A DNA stretch of 64,000 bases from NCBI RefSeq assembly GCF_902729405.1, contig NZ_LR746496.1, forward strand, positions 2,604,001-2,668,000, in the 5' to 3' direction. Source of the DNA: Acididesulfobacillus acetoxydans. Lineage in GTDB: Bacteria > Bacillota > Desulfitobacteriia > Desulfitobacteriales > Desulfitobacteriaceae. A program made the position numbers and the translations under genes. The notes beneath the pieces were generated by a model, which saw only the letters and a program-made list of their open reading frames with translations, was not told the DNA's origin and did no database searches. Within the stretch, counting starts at the first letter, position 1. Every line of letters begins with the position of its first letter. Below are positions 27,467 to 37,531 of this stretch, piece by piece.

Positions 27467-28105
27467 ATGTCACAGTATTATCCGGTTTTTATGGATTTAA
27501 AGGAAAAAGAGGTGCTGGTGGTCGGCGGCGGAGCGGTGGCAGAGCGTAAGATTGTGACGCTGCTGGCGCACTCGGCCCGGGTGCGTGTAGTAGCGCCCGC
27601 CTTGATCCCGCCGCTTCTCAGTCTGGTGCGCGAGGGTAAATGCCTCTGGGAGCAGAAGGAATATGCGGACGGAGACGTCCGCGATGCCTTGTTGGTCTTT
27701 TCCTGCACGGACAAAGAAGAAGTGAATGCCCGGGTCGCCGCCGATGCCCGGGCCATGGCCAGATGGGTCAACGTTGCAGACGACCCGGATAAATGCGGTT
27801 TTATCGTACCGTCGATTTTGGAACGGGGAGATTTGACAATCGCTGTGTCTACAGCGGGCAGCAGCCCGCTGGTGGCTCGGCAGATCCGCGCTGAGATAGA
27901 GCAGTCTTATGGGGAGGAGATGGCAGAATACTTGGCCTTGCTGAAGAAATGGCGCGTAGAGGTAAAACGGAGTTTGCCGCCGGAAAAACGGGCGGAATTT
28001 TGGGCCGGCGTCACCGACGGAAAGGTGAGAAACCTGATTGAACAGGGACAGGTGAAACTGGCGGAAGGGGTGGTTGAGCAGTGTTTCCGATCGCTGTTGG
28101 TCTAA
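27467..28105 (+). CDS. Precorrin-2 dehydrogenase / sirohydrochlorin ferrochelatase (Met8/CysG-B type)
   Basis: Oxidises precorrin-2 to sirohydrochlorin with NAD and may insert iron to make siroheme. The 212-residue protein has an N-terminal Rossmann fold VLVVGGGAVAERKI, then VFSCTDKEEVNARVA, WVNVADDPDKCGFIVPSI, LTIAVSTAGSSPLVARQIR and a C-terminal helical domain. First gene of the heme cluster; it overlaps hemA by 25 nt. In this cluster siroheme is the heme precursor, so the protein is on the main route rather than a side branch. No separate SirB-type ferrochelatase is visible, which favours a bifunctional enzyme. Confidence 0.93.
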   Translation: MSQYYPVFMDLKEKEVLVVGGGAVAERKIVTLLAHSARVRVVAPALIPPLLSLVREGKCLWEQKEYADGDVRDALLVFSCTDKEEVNARVAADARAMARWVNVADDPDKCGFIVPSILERGDLTIAVSTAGSSPLVARQIRAEIEQSYGEEMAEYLALLKKWRVEVKRSLPPEKRAEFWAGVTDGKVRNLIEQGQVKLAEGVVEQCFRSLLV

Positions 28106-29418
28106 ATCACCGCACGGCGCCGCTCGAAGTCCGTGAAAAGATTAGTTTTCACCACAGCCAGATCCCGGCCGCTCTGAAGGATCTTCTGGGGTATCCCGGC
28201 ATGCAGGGGGTTCTCATCTTAAACACCTGCAATCGTCTGGAGATTTACGCGGCGACGACGGATGTGGAAACCGGAAAGAAGTCCATTCTGGAGTTTCTGG
28301 CCCACCACGCCGGGTTGGATGAGGGGCAGCTGCACCAGTATCTTTATGTCCACACCCTGTACGATGCGGTGCGGCATCTCTACCGGGTGACTTCGGGACT
28401 TGACTCTATGGTTCTGGGGGAAACTCAGATCCTGGGGCAGGTCGCCAAAGCGTATGAGGTAGCGGCGGCGACGGGGGTGACGAACAAGGTCATCAACGTG
28501 TTTGTGCAGAATGCGCTCACGGTGGGCAAGAGAGTGCGTACCGAGACCCTGATCGATCAGCATCCGGTTTCGATTAGCTATACGGCTGTGGAAATGGCCA
28601 AACAGAAATTGGGCTGCTTGACAGACATCCCGATCTTGCTTTTGGGAGCGGGAGAGATGAGTACACTGACTGCCAAGCACCTGGCGGCTGCGGGGGCCTC
28701 GCAAGTGATCGTTTCCAACCGGTCGCATGGGCGGGCTGTAGGTTTGGCTGAGAGTTCGGGAGGCCGGGCACTCCCGTTTGACCGTCTGGACGAGGGGTTG
28801 GCGGAAGCCGACGTGGTTATTTCGGCGACGTCTGCCTTGAGCTTTATCCTCATGCCGGAGCGGATGGAGAAGATCATGCGGGAACGCGGGGGGCGCCCCC
28901 TCTTGCTGATTGATATTGCGGTGCCCAGGGATATACATCCCGAGGTGGGGAAAATTCCCGCGATCACGCTTTACGATATTGATGATTTGCGTGAGGTCGT
29001 CGATCAACACCGGCAGGCCCGGGAACTTGCGGCCCTGGCGGCAGAAAAGATCATCGACGAAGAAATGGCGGCTTTTGCCAAATGGCACAATTCCCTTTTT
29101 GTTATCCCCACCATTGTGGCCCTGCAGGAGCGCGGGCAACAGATTAAAGAGGCCTTGCTGGCGCGCACTCTGGAGCGCATTGGGGCGCTGACGCCGAAAC
29201 AGGAGAAAGCGATTTGCTCCCTGGCCAATTCTATCGTGAATCAGCTCCTGCACACGCCGATAACCAACCTGAAAGAATGCGCCAACACGCGGCAGGGGCA
29301 TCTTTACACGGAAATTTTGCAAAACCTTTTTGACTTGGATGTCGACGAGGAGACAGAGCGGCCTCTGCGAGTCATTGCCAAAGGCCAGACACAGCCGGGA
29401 AGGACAGAATCGTCATGA
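28081..29418 (+). CDS. hemA: Glutamyl-tRNA reductase
   Basis: Reduces Glu-tRNA to glutamate-1-semialdehyde, the committed step of tetrapyrrole synthesis. The 445-residue protein has catalytic Cys50 in [12 protein letters not shown], the substrate-site [31 protein letters not shown]-like sequence, an NADPH domain [16 protein letters not shown] and a C-terminal dimerisation helix. GTG 28081 lies inside the end of met8, so the two are coupled; the stop overlaps hemC by 4 nt (ATGA). Its substrate is made by gltX and tRNA-Glu at the start of the window. Confidence 0.96.
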
Positions 29419-30326
29419 ACATTTGGCGTATCGGGACCAGGGACAGTGCCCTCGCCCTCTGGCAGGCTGAGTGGGTTCGGGATCGCTTGGAGGGTGTTTA
29501 TCCGGAGCAGGAGTTTGTCCTGGTTCCGGTTAAGACCAAAGGAGACAAAATCTTGGATGTGCCGCTGGCGAAGATCGGAGACAAGGGGTTGTTTACCAAA
29601 GAGCTGGAAGCGGCCCTCCTTCGGGGGGAGATTGACCTGGCCGTCCACAGCCTGAAGGACCTGCCGACCGTCTTGCCGGACGGTTTAGTGATCGCGGCTT
29701 ATTGCGCGCGGGAGGAAGCGCGGGACGTCTTTCTGGGACGCGGGGGGGCGGGCTTGCGGGACCTGCCTTGGGGAGCGATCATCGGCACCAGCAGCCTGCG
29801 CCGTAAAGCCCAACTCAGATATTTCAGGCCGGATTTACGCTTTTCCGACCTGAGAGGGAATTTGCAGACCCGCTGGCGCAAACTTGAGGAGTCCGAGATG
29901 GCCGGAATTGTCCTGGCGGCTGCCGGGGTGAAAAGGCTGGGCTGGGAAGAGAGGATCACCGAAGTCATACCGGAGGAAATTGTTCTGCCGGCTGTGGGTC
30001 AAGGTTCGATTGCCGTGGAAATTGCCGCTTCCCGCCGGGACATGAAAGAGAAGCTGAATCGTCTCAATCACCGGGAGACGGAACAAGCCGTCGTGGCCGA
30101 ACGCGCGCTTATGCGCAGGCTGGAGGGCGGCTGCCAGGTGCCGATCGGGGCACTGGCCCGTTTGGAGGCTGATAAAATCCGGCTGAAGGCGATGGTGGCG
30201 AGTTTGGATGGCACAAGAATCTTGCGTGCACAAACCTACGGCGACAACCCGGCAACGGTGGGCCTGGAAGCAGCCGAGAGACTGCTCGGACAGGGGGCCG
30301 GGGAGATCCTGGCCGCCCTGAAGTGA
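29415..30326 (+). CDS. hemC: Porphobilinogen deaminase (hydroxymethylbilane synthase)
   Basis: Polymerises four porphobilinogens to hydroxymethylbilane. The 303-residue protein has [64 protein letters not shown] and the dipyrromethane-cofactor Cys in [10 protein letters not shown]. Starts at an ATGA overlap with hemA. Family length and all motifs are normal. Confidence 0.96.
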
Positions 30327-30387
30327 ACGGGCCGGCAAGCTTTCCGGTTTCTGACTTCTGACTTCTGATTAGATTGGAGTGTATAGA

Positions 30388-31902
30388 TTGGGCCAAGGTT
30401 ATGTTTATTTAGTGGGTGCGGGTCCGGGGGATCCCGGGTTAATCACGGTTAAAGGGGCGGACTGCCTGGCACGGGCGGAGGTGCTGGTCTATGATCGCCT
30501 GGCTTCCGGGCGTTTCTTGAGTTTGGTTTCGCCGGGGTGTGAGCTGATCTATGTGGGAAAATCCCCGGAAAGGCACACGTTGACCCAAGATGAGATTAAC
30601 GCCCTGCTGGTCCGGAAAGGTGCGGAAGGAAAAACCGTGGTCAGGCTCAAAGGCGGGGATCCTTTTGTTTTCGGGCGCGGCGGAGAAGAAGCCGAAGCAT
30701 TGCTTGAGGCCGGGATTCCTTTCGAGATCGTGCCGGGCATTACGTCGGCTGTGGCGGTGCCGGCTTATGCCGGAATTCCTGTGACTCACCGCGATTTGAC
30801 TTCGACTCTGACAATTATCACCGGCCACGAAGATCCTAATAAGAACACATCGGCGGTCAATTGGGAGCAGATTGCGCCCGGAGGGGGGACCCTCGTGTTT
30901 CTTATGGGCATGGAGAACCTGGATCTCATTGCCAAGAAGCTCAGAGAGCACGGACGGCCGGCAGAGACCCCGGTTGCCGTCATCCAGTGGGGGACCCGGC
31001 CTGAGCAAAGAGTGGTCAGCGGACGTTTGGATGAGATTTATGCCTTGGCCAGAGAACAAGGTTTTACCTCTCCGGCCGTTATTTTAGTGGGAGATGTTGT
31101 TTCCCTGAGAACCAGGTTGCAGTGGTTTGAGAAGAAACCCCTGTTCGGCCAGAGAATTGTGGTCACCCGAGCTCGCCGGCAAGCGAGTGTATTGTCCAGG
31201 GTGATTGAGGAGTTAGGCGGCGAGGCTTGGGAGTTTCCGGCAATCGACTTTGCGCCGCCCACGGACCCCGGCCGTTTAGCTCAAGCGGTCGAAAAGATTA
31301 AGAGTTTTGAATGGCTGGTGTTTACCAGCGTTAACGGAGTGGAGGCTTTCTTGGCCGAGTTAAAGCGGCAGGCCAAAGATATCCGGGACTTGGCGGGAGT
31401 TGATCTCGTAGCGATCGGTCCCTCGACGCAGGCGGCTTTGGAAGAGATGGGCCTGCGTGTTTCCTTTGTGCCGCCTGAGTACCGGGCAGAGGCGATCATC
31501 AGCGGCTTGGCCAGCCGGGTCTTAAGAGGGCAGCGGGTGCTTCTGGCCCGGGCCGAGGAGGCCAGGGACATCCTGCCCGAGTCCGTGAAAGCGTTGGGAG
31601 CCGACGTCTGGGATGTCCCCGCTTACCGCACGGTTTTGGGGGGAGCGGATCGGGAGATGCTCAAAAGTTTATTAGCACAGAAGTCGGTGCAGGCGGTGAC
31701 TTTTACCAGCTCTTCTACAGTGAGAAATTTTATGAAGATGATCGATGGGGACAGAATTCTCTTGGAGGGGATCAAATTATTTTCCATCGGTCCCATCACC
31801 AGTGCCACGGCCCGGGATCTCGGCCTGACGATTGACGGCGAGGCGCAGAAATACACCATTAAGGGGTTGATTCAAGCCCTGGTAAAGGGGGTTAAAGGAT
31901 GA
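30388..31902 (+). CDS. cobA-hemD: Fused uroporphyrinogen-III C-methyltransferase / uroporphyrinogen-III synthase
   Basis: A 504-residue two-domain enzyme. The N-terminal SUMT domain (about 1-245) has YLVGAGPGDPGLIT, VVRLKGGDPFVFGRGGEE and GITSAVAVPAYAGIPVTHR and methylates uroporphyrinogen III to precorrin-2. The C-terminal HemD domain (about 250-500) has IVVTRARRQAS, WLVFTSVNGVEAF and VTFTSSSTVRNFM and cyclises hydroxymethylbilane. The fusion is common in Firmicutes and channels flux to siroheme. TTG 30388 has TTGGAG 8 nt upstream and is preferred over GTG 30379. It overlaps ahbC in ATGA. Confidence 0.95.
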   Translation: MGQGYVYLVGAGPGDPGLITVKGADCLARAEVLVYDRLASGRFLSLVSPGCELIYVGKSPERHTLTQDEINALLVRKGAEGKTVVRLKGGDPFVFGRGGEEAEALLEAGIPFEIVPGITSAVAVPAYAGIPVTHRDLTSTLTIITGHEDPNKNTSAVNWEQIAPGGGTLVFLMGMENLDLIAKKLREHGRPAETPVAVIQWGTRPEQRVVSGRLDEIYALAREQGFTSPAVILVGDVVSLRTRLQWFEKKPLFGQRIVVTRARRQASVLSRVIEELGGEAWEFPAIDFAPPTDPGRLAQAVEKIKSFEWLVFTSVNGVEAFLAELKRQAKDIRDLAGVDLVAIGPSTQAALEEMGLRVSFVPPEYRAEAIISGLASRVLRGQRVLLARAEEARDILPESVKALGADVWDVPAYRTVLGGADREMLKSLLAQKSVQAVTFTSSSTVRNFMKMIDGDRILLEGIKLFSIGPITSATARDLGLTIDGEAQKYTIKGLIQALVKGVKG

Positions 31903-33098
31903 TCAGCGTGACCAAGCTTCTTTTTGACCGGGAATATTTCGGCGACACCTTGCGCTACAATAAGGGTTCTCGGGGAGCGATGCACGGGACGACTCTGGGG
32001 TCCGGGCCGGTCGTGGTCTGGAACTCTACCCGCACCTGCAACCTGAAATGCCGGCACTGCTATATGGACTCCAACGCCGAGAAGTACACCGGAGAAATGA
32101 ATACGGAAGAGGCGAAACGGTTTATTGACGATCTGGCCGATTTTCGGGTGCCGGTTCTTCTTTTTTCCGGGGGAGAGCCTCTGATCCGGCCGGATTTCTT
32201 TGAGCTGGCCGAGTATACCATTCAGAAGGGGATTCGGACGACTCTCTCGACCAACGGGACCCTGATTACTCCGGAAGTGGCCCGGCACCTGAAAGCGATA
32301 GGTGTGGGTTATGTGGGGATTTCACTGGACGGGTTGAGGGAGGTCAATGACCGCTTCCGCGGCAAAGAGGGCGCTTTTGAAGCGGCCATGCACGGGATTC
32401 AAAACTGTGTCGCGGCCGGGCAAAGAGTGGGACTGAGGTTCACGATCAACCGGCACAACTATGAGGAACTGGACAACATCTTTGATTTTATCGAAGAGGA
32501 AAAAATCGACCGGGTTTGTTTCTACCATCTCGTTTATTCCGGGCGCGGTCAGAAAATGATGGCGGACGACCTGACGCCTGAGGAATCCCGGGAGGCCATG
32601 GATATCATCATTCGCAGGACGGAAGACTATGAGAAGCGGGGATTGAAAAAGGAAATTCTCACGGTCGACAATCACTGTGACGGGGTGTATCTGTATCTGC
32701 GCGCGCTTAAGCAAGACCCGGCCCAAGCGGAAAGGATTTACAACCTGATTGCCCTCAACGGGGGAAACCGGTCCGGGATGGCTTTTGCGGAAGTGGACCC
32801 TTACGGCAATGTCCATCCGGATCAGTTTACTCAGCATGTATCTTTCGGTAATGTGCGTGAGCGCCCGTTCGGTGAGATCTGGACGGATCTTTCCCAGCCG
32901 ATTCTCGCGGGACTGAAAGAGCGCAAACCCCTCTTGCAGGGACGCTGTGCGAACTGCCGTTTCCTGGATATTTGCAACGGCAATTTTCGTACCCGGGCGG
33001 AAGCGGTGACCGGGGATTTCTGGGCATCGGACCCGGCATGCTATTTAACGGATGAAGAAATAGGGATCAAGGATAGGGACGGGGGGAATCTAAAGTGA
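31899..33098 (+). CDS. ahbC: AhbC-type radical SAM enzyme (12,18-didecarboxysiroheme deacetylase)
   Basis: Removes the two acetate side chains of 12,18-didecarboxysiroheme, giving iron-coproporphyrin III. The 399-residue radical SAM protein has cluster ligands C47, C51, C54 in [26 protein letters not shown] and [11 protein letters not shown]-terminal SPASM-like Cys region contains [15 protein letters not shown] and DPACYL. The N-terminal [17 protein letters not shown] is typical of AhbC/NirJ. NirJ of heme d1 synthesis is the close alternative, but hemB, ahbD and ahbAB follow and no nitrite reductase genes are present. Starts and stops overlap the neighbours. Confidence 0.93.
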
Positions 33099-34069
33099 AT
33101 CTGAAGAAACGTCCGCGCCGGCTGCGGGCCGGCGCAGAGATTCGGAGGATGGTGCGGGAAAACCATGTGCGCGTTGACGATTTGATTTATCCCATGTTTG
33201 TCATGCCGGGCAAGGGCCAAAAAGCGGAAGTGGCTTCGATGCCCGGCGTCTGTCAGTATTCCCTGGACGAATTTGTCCGGGCTCTCAGTGAAGTGGTCGA
33301 ACTCAAGATCCCGGCCATTCTCCTTTTCGGTATTCCGGAGAGCAAGGATGCCCTGGCCAGCGGAGCCTATCATGAACACGGAATTGTTCAGGAGGCCGTG
33401 CGTCTGGCCAAAGCGCACTATCCTTCCCTCTACGTGATCACGGACGTGTGTCTCTGTGAGTACACCGACCACGGCCATTGCGGCATCGTTCGGGATGGGG
33501 TGATCTTGAATGATCCCACTCTCGATTATCTGGCGCGGACTGCGGTTTCCCACGCGGCGGCGGGGGCGGATATGGTGGCTCCGTCGGACATGATGGACGG
33601 ACGGGTGGGGGCCATTCGCGAGGCCCTGGACGAACACGGGTTTGAGCAAGTGCCGATCATGGCCTATGCGGCCAAATTTGCCTCCGGCTTTTACGGACCT
33701 TTTCGGGAGGCCGCCGGGTCTGCTCCCCAATTCGGAGACCGGCGCACTTATCAGATGGATCCTCCCAACGGAGAGGAAGCGATGCGGGAGACCGCCCTGG
33801 ACGTTGAGGAAGGGGCCGATCTGATCATCGTGAAGCCCGCGCTGGCTTACGGGGACATTATTTACCGGACCAAAGAACGCTTTGGCCTGCCGGTGGCCGC
33901 CTACAATGTGAGCGGTGAATACGCCATGGTCAAAGCCGCCGCGGCCAACGGCTGGATCGAGGAGGAGCGCGTAGTCATGGAAGCCCTGGTAGGGATGAAG
34001 CGGGCCGGGGCGGACCTCTTGATCACGTATCATGCCTTGGATGCGGCTCGTTGGCTGAACAGAGGCTGA
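33095..34069 (+). CDS. hemB: Delta-aminolevulinic acid dehydratase (porphobilinogen synthase)
   Basis: Condenses two 5-aminolevulinates to porphobilinogen. The 324-residue TIM barrel has the zinc-type cysteine cluster [14 protein letters not shown], the Schiff-base lysines in [19 protein letters not shown] and [13 protein letters not shown], and [17 protein letters not shown] 33095 overlaps the ahbC stop. It is followed by a strong GC hairpin (34083-34114) before ahbD, the only real intergenic break inside the late heme block. Confidence 0.96.
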
Positions 34070-34114: not shown

Positions 34115-34133
34115 CCTGAAAGGGGTAGTGTGC

Positions 34134-35129
34134 ATGATCGTCTCTTGGAATACAACCAATGCCTGCAACATGTATTGTGAGCATTGTTACCGGGATGCGG
34201 GGTGCCCGGCCGAAGAAGAGCTGAGCACGGCCGAGGCCAAGAAAATGCTGGGGGAGATTGCCCGGGCCGGTTTTAAGATCATGATTTTCAGCGGGGGTGA
34301 ACCCCTGCTGCGCCCGGATATCGTCGAACTGGTGGCTCACGCTAAATCGGTCGGACTCAGACCGGTGTTTGGCACCAACGGCACTCTCTTGACCCCGAAA
34401 TTGGCACGGGAGCTGAAAGAAGCCGGGACGATGGGGATGGGCATTTCCCTTGACTCCCTGAACAAGGAAAAGCACGACCAATTCCGACATTATGCCGGGG
34501 CCTGGGAGGAAGCCGTGCGAGGGATGCGCTATTGCCGTGAGGCGGGGCTCCCTTTTCAGATTCACACTACGGTTATGGATTGGAATGCCGCCGAATTGGA
34601 AGCGATGACGGATTTTGCCGTGGCTCAAGGGGCACTCGCCCATCATTTCTTTTTCCTGGTTCCGACAGGCCGGGCTGTGAGTATCGAAGAGGAGTCCTTG
34701 CGTGCCGAACAGTATGAAGAGGTCTTGACCCGGATTATGCGCAAACAGCAAACGGTGGATATCGAACTGAAACCGACCTGTGCTCCTCAGTTCATGCGCA
34801 TTGCCAAACAGATGGGGATCAATCTGCGTTTCGGCCGCGGTTGTTTGGCAGGGACCTCTTATTGCATTATTGGGCCGAAGGGCATCGTCCAACCCTGCGC
34901 CTACCTCAACATCCCGTTGGGGGATGTGAGGCAGACACCGTTTGACGAAATATGGCGCAGCAGCGAGGTCCTGCAAACTCTGCGTACCCTGGAATACAAG
35001 GGTGGGTGCGGAACCTGCGAATACAACAAGATCTGCGGCGGCTGCCGGGCCAGAGCCGCCTATTATCACGAGGGCGACTATATGGCGGAAGAGCCCTGGT
35101 GTCTGTACCACGGGCGCAAGGGGGTTTAG
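34134..35129 (+). CDS. ahbD: AhbD heme synthase (radical SAM)
   Basis: Decarboxylates two propionates of iron-coproporphyrin III to vinyl groups, giving heme b. The 331-residue protein has cluster ligands C11, C15, C18 in NACNMYCEHCYRDAG, FSGGEPLLRPDI, GTNGTLLTPKLA and SLDSLNKEKHDQFRH. A C-terminal SPASM-type Cys set contains GCLAG, GGCGTCEYNKICGGCRARA and PWCLYH. ATG 34134 (spacing 9 from AGGGG) is preferred over GTG 34128. Identification rests on these motifs plus neighbours ahbC and ahbAB. Confidence 0.93.
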   Translation: MIVSWNTTNACNMYCEHCYRDAGCPAEEELSTAEAKKMLGEIARAGFKIMIFSGGEPLLRPDIVELVAHAKSVGLRPVFGTNGTLLTPKLARELKEAGTMGMGISLDSLNKEKHDQFRHYAGAWEEAVRGMRYCREAGLPFQIHTTVMDWNAAELEAMTDFAVAQGALAHHFFFLVPTGRAVSIEEESLRAEQYEEVLTRIMRKQQTVDIELKPTCAPQFMRIAKQMGINLRFGRGCLAGTSYCIIGPKGIVQPCAYLNIPLGDVRQTPFDEIWRSSEVLQTLRTLEYKGGCGTCEYNKICGGCRARAAYYHEGDYMAEEPWCLYHGRKGV

Positions 35130-35130
35130 T

Positions 35131-36189
35131 ATGGAGAAGGTTGAACGCAGCCTGCTCAACATCGTGCAAACGAAGTTTCCCCTGGAGAGCCGGCCTTATC
35201 GGAAATTGGGAGAACTGCTGGGGATTGACGAGGCGGCAGCCTTCGGACACATGAACCGCCTGTACGCTGCGGGAATTGTCCGTCGCCTGGGCGGTATTTT
35301 TGACTCGCGCCGGTTGGGGTATTTCAGCACGCTCTGTGCAGCCAAAATCCCCGCGGACAAAGTCGCTCAGGTAGCGGGTCTTTTAGCGGACATCCCGGGG
35401 GTAACTCACAACTATCTGCGTGAACATGAGTACAACATGTGGTTTACCCTCATTGTTTCCTCAGAAGAGGAGGCGGAAAGGATCCTGGCCGGGGTGCGTG
35501 AGGAGGCCGGAACGCCGGATATCTACAGTCTGCCGGCCGTGCGCCTGTTTAAGATCCGGGTGGACTTGGACTTGAATAGCGATGATGTTGCGGAGACGCC
35601 CGAAGCGCCGCATAGACCTGCGCAGGGGGGTGCGGGGTGGGAAAAGTTCCCGCCGGAAGGAGAGTCCGAAAGGGAAGTCATGGGACTTTCGCCACCCGGG
35701 GCGGCCGAGAGCGCGGGCTTAACGGAGGCAGATCGGGCCTTAGTCAAAACGCTCCAGACGGACCTGCCGCATGCCCTTAAGCCCTTCGCCCTGGTGGCGG
35801 AGACGCTGGGACGAAGCGAGAAGGAAGTTCTGTCCAGGACGGAAGAGTTTTTGCAAGAAGGAATTATGCGCCGTTTCGGGGTCATCCTCAGGCATCAAAA
35901 AGCCGGGTTCACGGCCAATGCCATGGGCGTCTGGCAGGTGGAGGAGGACCGGGCGGTGCAGGTGGGAAAGCAAATGGCCAAATTTCGTGAAGTAAGCCAT
36001 TGTTACCAGCGTCCCACTTTACCCGACTGGCCGTATAATATTTTCACCATGGTTCACGGGCGTACCCCGGAGGAATGCCGCCGGGTGATGGAAAAAATCT
36101 CCCGGGCAACCGGGCTTAAAGGATACAGAATGCTTTTCAGTACGGTGGAATTGAAAAAGAGCAGTATGCAGTATTTTGGTGAAGATTGA
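35131..36189 (+). CDS. ahbAB: Fused siroheme decarboxylase AhbA-AhbB
   Basis: Converts siroheme to 12,18-didecarboxysiroheme. AhbA and AhbB are normally two separate Lrp/AsnC-like proteins of about 150-160 residues that form a heterodimer; here one 352-residue frame contains both. Residues 1-150 are AhbA-like (helix-turn-helix [49 protein letters not shown]). Residues 151-197 form a Pro/Glu/Gly-rich linker, and 198-352 are AhbB-like ([41 protein letters not shown]). ATG 35131 is one base after the ahbD stop and has AAGGGGG 7 nt upstream. Both halves keep the His/Tyr/Arg-rich active-site segments, so both look functional. Confidence 0.92.
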
Positions 36190-36238
36190 GGCGGGAAGGC
36201 CGGTCGCCGCTTTGCGGCCGAAGAAAGGAGTCATCAGG

Positions 36239-37531
36239 GTGTCATTTCAAGATGTTAGGAGCCGGGCAGCGTTTGAACGAGCGGAAAAGGTCATTCCGGG
36301 CGGGGTGAATTCTCCGGTCCGGGCTTTCCGAGCGGTGGGCCGTCACCCGGTCTTCATTGAACGGGGAGCGGGGCCGCGCCTGTGGGATATAGACGGCAAT
36401 GAGTATATCGATTATGTGGGGTCCTGGGGGCCGTTGATCTTGGGTCACGCCCGTCCGGAAGTGATTAAAGCCATCAAAGAGGCGGCGGAACGAGGAACCA
36501 GTTACGGGGCTCCCACTGTGCCGGAGACTGAATTGGCAGAGGAAGTGCTCAAGGCCTATCCTTCGATGGACATGGTGCGCATGGTAAATTCGGGAACGGA
36601 AGCGACGATGTCCGCCTTGCGTCTGGCTCGCGCGGTGACCGGCCGGTCTAAGATTGTCAAGTTTGAAGGCTGCTATCACGGACACTCGGATCAGCTGTTG
36701 ATCAAGGCGGGAAGCGGGGCCTTGACTCTGGGCGTTCCCACTTCCCCCGGGGTGCCGGAAGCAACAGCGTCCACAACCCTTTCCACAGTCTACAACGATT
36801 TGGACGGGCTTAGGGAAATGTTCCGGGTCCAAGGTGAAGACATTGCCGCGGTCATTGTGGAACCGGTGGCCGGCAACATGGGGGTTGTCCTGCCGGAGGC
36901 GGGCTTCTTGGAGGGGCTCAGGGCCCTCACCCAGTCCTACGGAGCCCTGCTGATCTTTGACGAGGTGATGACCGGATTCAGGGTCGGCTACGGCGGAGCC
37001 CAGGCTCACTTCGGTATCGATCCGGATTTGACTTGCTTGGGCAAGGTGATCGGCGGTGGACTGCCTGTGGGTGCTTACGGAGGCAAACGCCGCTATCTGG
37101 AACAGATTGCCCCCAGCGGTCCTGTTTACCAGGCGGGCACTCTTTCCGGCAATCCCTTGGCTATGGCGGCGGGCCTCGCGACCCTGCGGCTGTTGCAGAA
37201 GCCGGGAACTTACGAAGGATTGAATGCCGGGAGGCGCCGGCTGGCAGACGGCCTAGCCGGATTGGCCCGGGAACTCGGGATTCCGCTTCAGATTAACGGC
37301 GTCGGGGCCATGTTTTCCCTCTTTTTCACGCCGGACCCAGTGAAGGATTATGCCACCGCTCTGCGGGCGGATGCGGAGTTTTTCGCCCGCTATTTCCGGG
37401 GGATGCTGGAACGCGGGGTCTATCTGGCTCCCAGCCAGTTTGAAGCGCTTTTTGTATCCACGGCTCACACGGAACGGGAACTTGACTTTACTCTGGAGCA
37501 AGCCCGGGCCACGCTCAGGAGTTTGCGTTGA
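36239..37531 (+). CDS. hemL: Glutamate-1-semialdehyde 2,1-aminomutase
   Basis: Converts glutamate-1-semialdehyde to 5-aminolevulinate, the step after HemA. A 430-residue fold-type I PLP enzyme: [56 protein letters not shown], the PLP lysine in [16 protein letters not shown], and [19 protein letters not shown] 36239 has AAAGGAG with 8-nt spacing; the frame is open further upstream without a better start. Last gene of the heme cluster, 49 bp after ahbAB. Confidence 0.96.

Follow-up and report, generated by a model that had tools for sequence, protein, structure and literature searches.

A predicted fused AhbA-AhbB siroheme decarboxylase within a heme operon of Acididesulfobacillus acetoxydans

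In the 64,000-nucleotide stretch of the Acididesulfobacillus acetoxydans genome analysed here (the window), the frame at 35131-36189 (+), here ahbAB, encodes two Lrp/AsnC-like halves joined by a linker. We asked whether this is a siroheme decarboxylase with both subunits in one chain, whether the joining is genuine, which heme such an enzyme would serve and how it relates to fused enzymes described elsewhere. Coordinates of all features are collected in Table 1.

Results

One frame encodes both AhbA and AhbB

A first-pass annotation of the DNA had read the locus as a single 352-codon frame comprising AhbA, a Pro/Gly/Glu-rich linker and AhbB, and each of these elements held up. Translation gave an uninterrupted product of 352 residues ending at a stop codon. 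Pfam places two AsnC_trans_reg2 and two NirDL-like HTH domains in the product, and these are the only two AsnC_trans_reg2 domains in this single-contig genome. Both NCBIfam equivalog cut-offs are passed, by the AhbA domain (residues 6-148; cut-off 140 bits) and by the AhbB domain (residues 204-348; cut-off 125 bits), and P, G and E make up 47% of the linker of about 45 residues (~151-195), in which Ala is also abundant. The annotation was likewise right that conserved motifs are intact in both halves, but it had given them as HxY/WP segments; the true motif is HxYxR, described for both AhbA and AhbB (PMC4145669) and present here as H93-Y95-R97 (HNYLR) and H290-Y292-R294 (HCYQR). Sequence evidence supports the product as a putative fused siroheme decarboxylase, with AhbA N-terminal and AhbB C-terminal.

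Table 1 Features of ahbAB and of the surrounding heme operon (window positions)
Feature	Position	Strand	Basis
Precorrin-2 dehydrogenase / siroheme synthase N-terminal type	27467..28105	+	TIGR01470
hemA, glutamyl-tRNA reductase	28081..29418	+	recognised by eye from reading frame
hemC, hydroxymethylbilane synthase	29415..30326	+	recognised by eye from reading frame
cobA-hemD fusion, uroporphyrinogen III methyltransferase + synthase	30379..31902	+	family profile search
NirJ1-type radical SAM protein, AhbC-like	31899..33098	+	TIGR04054, 706 bits
hemB, porphobilinogen synthase	33095..34069	+	NF006762
NirJ2-type radical SAM protein, AhbD-like	34128..35129	+	TIGR04055, 616 bits
ahbAB, predicted fused siroheme decarboxylase, 352 aa	35131..36189	+	translation, family profiles, predicted fold
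AhbA half, residues 1-150, HNYLR motif H93/Y95/R97	35131..35580	+	NF040708, 238 bits; H93 alignment
Inter-domain linker, residues 151-195, Pro/Gly/Glu/Ala-rich	35581..35715	+	pLDDT <50 at 160-183; L003 comparison
AhbB half, residues 196-352, HCYQR motif H290/Y292/R294	35716..36186	+	NF040707, 271 bits; R294 alignment
hemL, glutamate-1-semialdehyde aminomutase; start codon may be further downstream	36176..37531	+	TIGR00713

The predicted model of the protein alone (mean pLDDT 88, pTM 0.84) has a disordered linker and an Lrp/AsnC-like fold in both halves that matches solved siroheme decarboxylase structures. By sequence and by fold, the best full-length match is NirDL (4CH7), which aligns over 291 residues with a Z score of 27.9 and covers both halves. 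Residues H93 and R97 align with the iron-binding His115 and with Arg119 of Desulfovibrio desulfuricans AhbA, and H290, Y292 and R294 align with His98, Tyr100 and Arg102 of its AhbB, the numbering of which was corrected for a 20-residue tag on that chain. In the D. desulfuricans enzyme, replacement of AhbB Arg102 by Ala abolishes activity (PMC4145669). The shared fold, together with the statement that DNA binding by AhbA/B is not established (PMC4145669), could also suggest a double Lrp/AsnC transcription regulator. We consider this extremely unlikely, given that the LysM, LrpA and AsnC regulator models score far under their cut-offs where AhbA and AhbB score well over theirs, and that the catalytic motifs are intact in both halves.

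The single frame is genuine

Other Bacillota usually carry adjacent, separate ahbA and ahbB genes, and a sequencing error could in principle have joined two such genes here by removing a stop codon, an outcome that the first-pass annotation had named as a possible refutation. In the nearest named relative, Peptococcaceae bacterium CEB3 (L003), the same single frame is present with an identical linker length; identity to ahbAB is 67% in the linker and 90% and 88% in the domains, and the differences fall mainly at third codon positions. Both domains also share one frame in about 38 genomes of the host's family (a count taken by eye from the listed rows). A survey of 83 genomes of the class showed the two domains sharing a frame in nearly every same-family genome that had a match; in another family of that class (f4), two separate adjacent genes take their place. 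A read-through artefact is excluded because frame and linker are conserved in L003, the differences are mostly at third positions and the same frame recurs in these ~38 genomes; a sequencing error is vanishingly improbable, since independent genomes from the host's own genus, family and order carry single-frame ahbAB as well. Across that family and order, the fused form keeps HxYxR in each half. An internal start for a separate AhbB was also considered, at ATG codon 184 with an SD-like stretch upstream, and was rejected; L003 has no start at that codon.

A heme operon surrounds ahbAB

The predicted siroheme decarboxylase lies in an operon-like run that is complete for heme: hemA, hemC, cobA-hemD, nirJ1/ahbC-like, hemB, nirJ2/ahbD-like, ahbAB and hemL. 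The NirJ2-type frame stops 1 base upstream of the ahbAB start, and cobA-hemD in one frame is another known fusion (PMC11237513). The two radical SAM proteins score above the NirJ1 and NirJ2 cut-offs but below those of AhbC (541 bits for the first protein) and AhbD (358 bits for the second). Although the NirJ1 and NirJ2 models carry 'putative heme d1' in their titles, cytochrome cd1 is missing from the genome; these family names look misleading for heme b operons of this kind.

Genome-wide searches for ferrochelatase, HemQ and cytochrome cd1 nitrite reductase (PF02239) found none of them. HemE is not among the two best URO-D proteins of the genome, both of which fall well below the HemE cut-off and score as corrinoid methyltransferase relatives. 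In these searches, no terminal heme route other than the siroheme route, and no use of heme d1, was seen.

The names of the neighbouring radical SAM models, and of NirDL as the best solved relative, would fit an enzyme of NirDL type that serves heme d1 rather than heme b. We judge this very unlikely: besides the missing cytochrome cd1 and the location of ahbAB in a full heme operon, ahbAB groups with Bacillota AhbAB, away from the 4CH7 clade, and the chemistry of this step is identical in both pathways. The likely purpose of ahbAB is to make heme b through siroheme, given the heme operon, the lack of ferrochelatase, HemQ and cytochrome cd1, and the finding that the best two URO-D proteins are not HemE.

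The joined or separate state has changed more than once

Loci gathered by similarity comprised 41 with a fused pair and 25 with a separate pair, one locus having both. Other fusions, a search for which the first-pass annotation had proposed, are common among archaea and in numerous bacteria. In a tree of both halves, made by a quick search in which some long branches are unsure, ahbAB falls within a starred clade of 18 sequences, all fused. This clade is nested in a starred set of 43, of which 19 are separate and all are from Bacillota or the host's own phylum; the set stands apart from the fused clade that holds 4CH7. Placing all fused forms in one clade was rejected (p-AU 0.00116), and the starred branches force at least 5 changes of state, the tree giving no direction of fusion or fission. 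The fused or separate state has changed more than once (single clade rejected, AU p 0.001), and the ahbA-ahbB fusion in this Bacillota order probably has an origin separate from those of the archaeal and NirDL-type fusions, as repeated evolution of the same fusion. Such changes between fused and separate forms offer a small natural experiment on why two subunits are joined.

Individual loci add variety. G055, a genome from the same order, has two fused ahbAB copies (L078 and L079), with AhbA-half motifs HCYLR and HSYIR; a distant phylum member (G100) has a fused ahbAB (L090) with a longer linker still, of about 60 residues; and in G044, from the same family, ahbA and ahbB are separate, highly diverged and placed on a long branch (L075).

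Discussion

We consider it very probable that ahbAB encodes a siroheme decarboxylase, with AhbA and AhbB fused, that serves the alternative, siroheme-dependent heme b pathway in this member of the Desulfitobacteriaceae; its activity and substrate are predictions. Its two Lrp/AsnC-like halves would pack together into an intramolecular pseudo-dimer within a single chain, leaving one cavity for siroheme between the C-terminal beta-sheet domains. If these residues act as their counterparts do in D. desulfuricans AhbA/B, the iron would be bound by H93 and a propionate by R97, and H290, Y292 and R294 would together help to decarboxylate the C12 and C18 acetates, one after the other. The most likely product is 12,18-didecarboxysiroheme, formed en route to heme b, to which the adjoining radical SAM proteins may convert it.

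In D. desulfuricans, the product sits in an inter-subunit cavity lined by both subunits, and kinetic data are consistent with one active site for each AhbA/B pair (PMC4145669). The first-pass annotation had named activity confined to one half as a second possible refutation; such activity would not suit a siroheme decarboxylase, because the two halves together form the walls of a single cavity and the kinetics point to one active site per pair. Its proposal that fusion fixes a 1:1 stoichiometry of AhbA and AhbB is plausible, and the archaeal fusion has already been tied to instability of the separate subunits (PMC4145669).

Comparison with known fused and separate enzymes

The fusion is not new. 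The first-pass annotation had described characterised enzymes as AhbA+AhbB heterodimers or single homologous proteins, and heterodimers do exist (4CZD, 4UN1), but it omitted the fused siroheme decarboxylase NirDL of Hydrogenobacter thermophilus (4CH7, 4CZC), which secondary sources (PMC4835899) and PDB titles describe as one fused chain and whose crystal structure dates from 2014. Like ahbAB, NirDL has one chain, the same order of halves, HxYxR twice and the same full-length fold; it differs in its shorter linker, its 33-38% identity, its position on another tree branch and its naming for heme d1 synthesis.

Among archaea, ahb-nirDH fusions occur in almost all that have these genes, methanogens excepted (Storbeck 2010, PMC3004389), and ahbA-ahbB gene fusion has likewise been reported (PMC3942049; PMC11237513). 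What these have in common with ahbAB is the joining of ahbA and ahbB within the alternative heme pathway (PMC3004389, PMC11237513); a halobacterial member (L049) reaches just 32% identity and sits on a separate branch. In Dehalobacter, another of the anaerobic Firmicutes, DCF50_1080 was reported as a fused AhbAB next to AhbC- and AhbD-like genes (PMC4751268); it is a sequence prediction only, likened to the window protein by description. D. desulfuricans AhbA/B (4CZD, 4UN1) resembles the two halves (AhbA 53% identical, AhbB 41-42%, Foldseek match) and has the same residues but, unlike ahbAB, forms a heterodimer of two separate polypeptides.

With fused siroheme decarboxylases already published, the ahbAB of the window is an unremarkable example of an established type. 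It adds one more fused AhbAB to the known set, of little significance alone, and bears out siroheme-dependent heme synthesis in these anaerobes.
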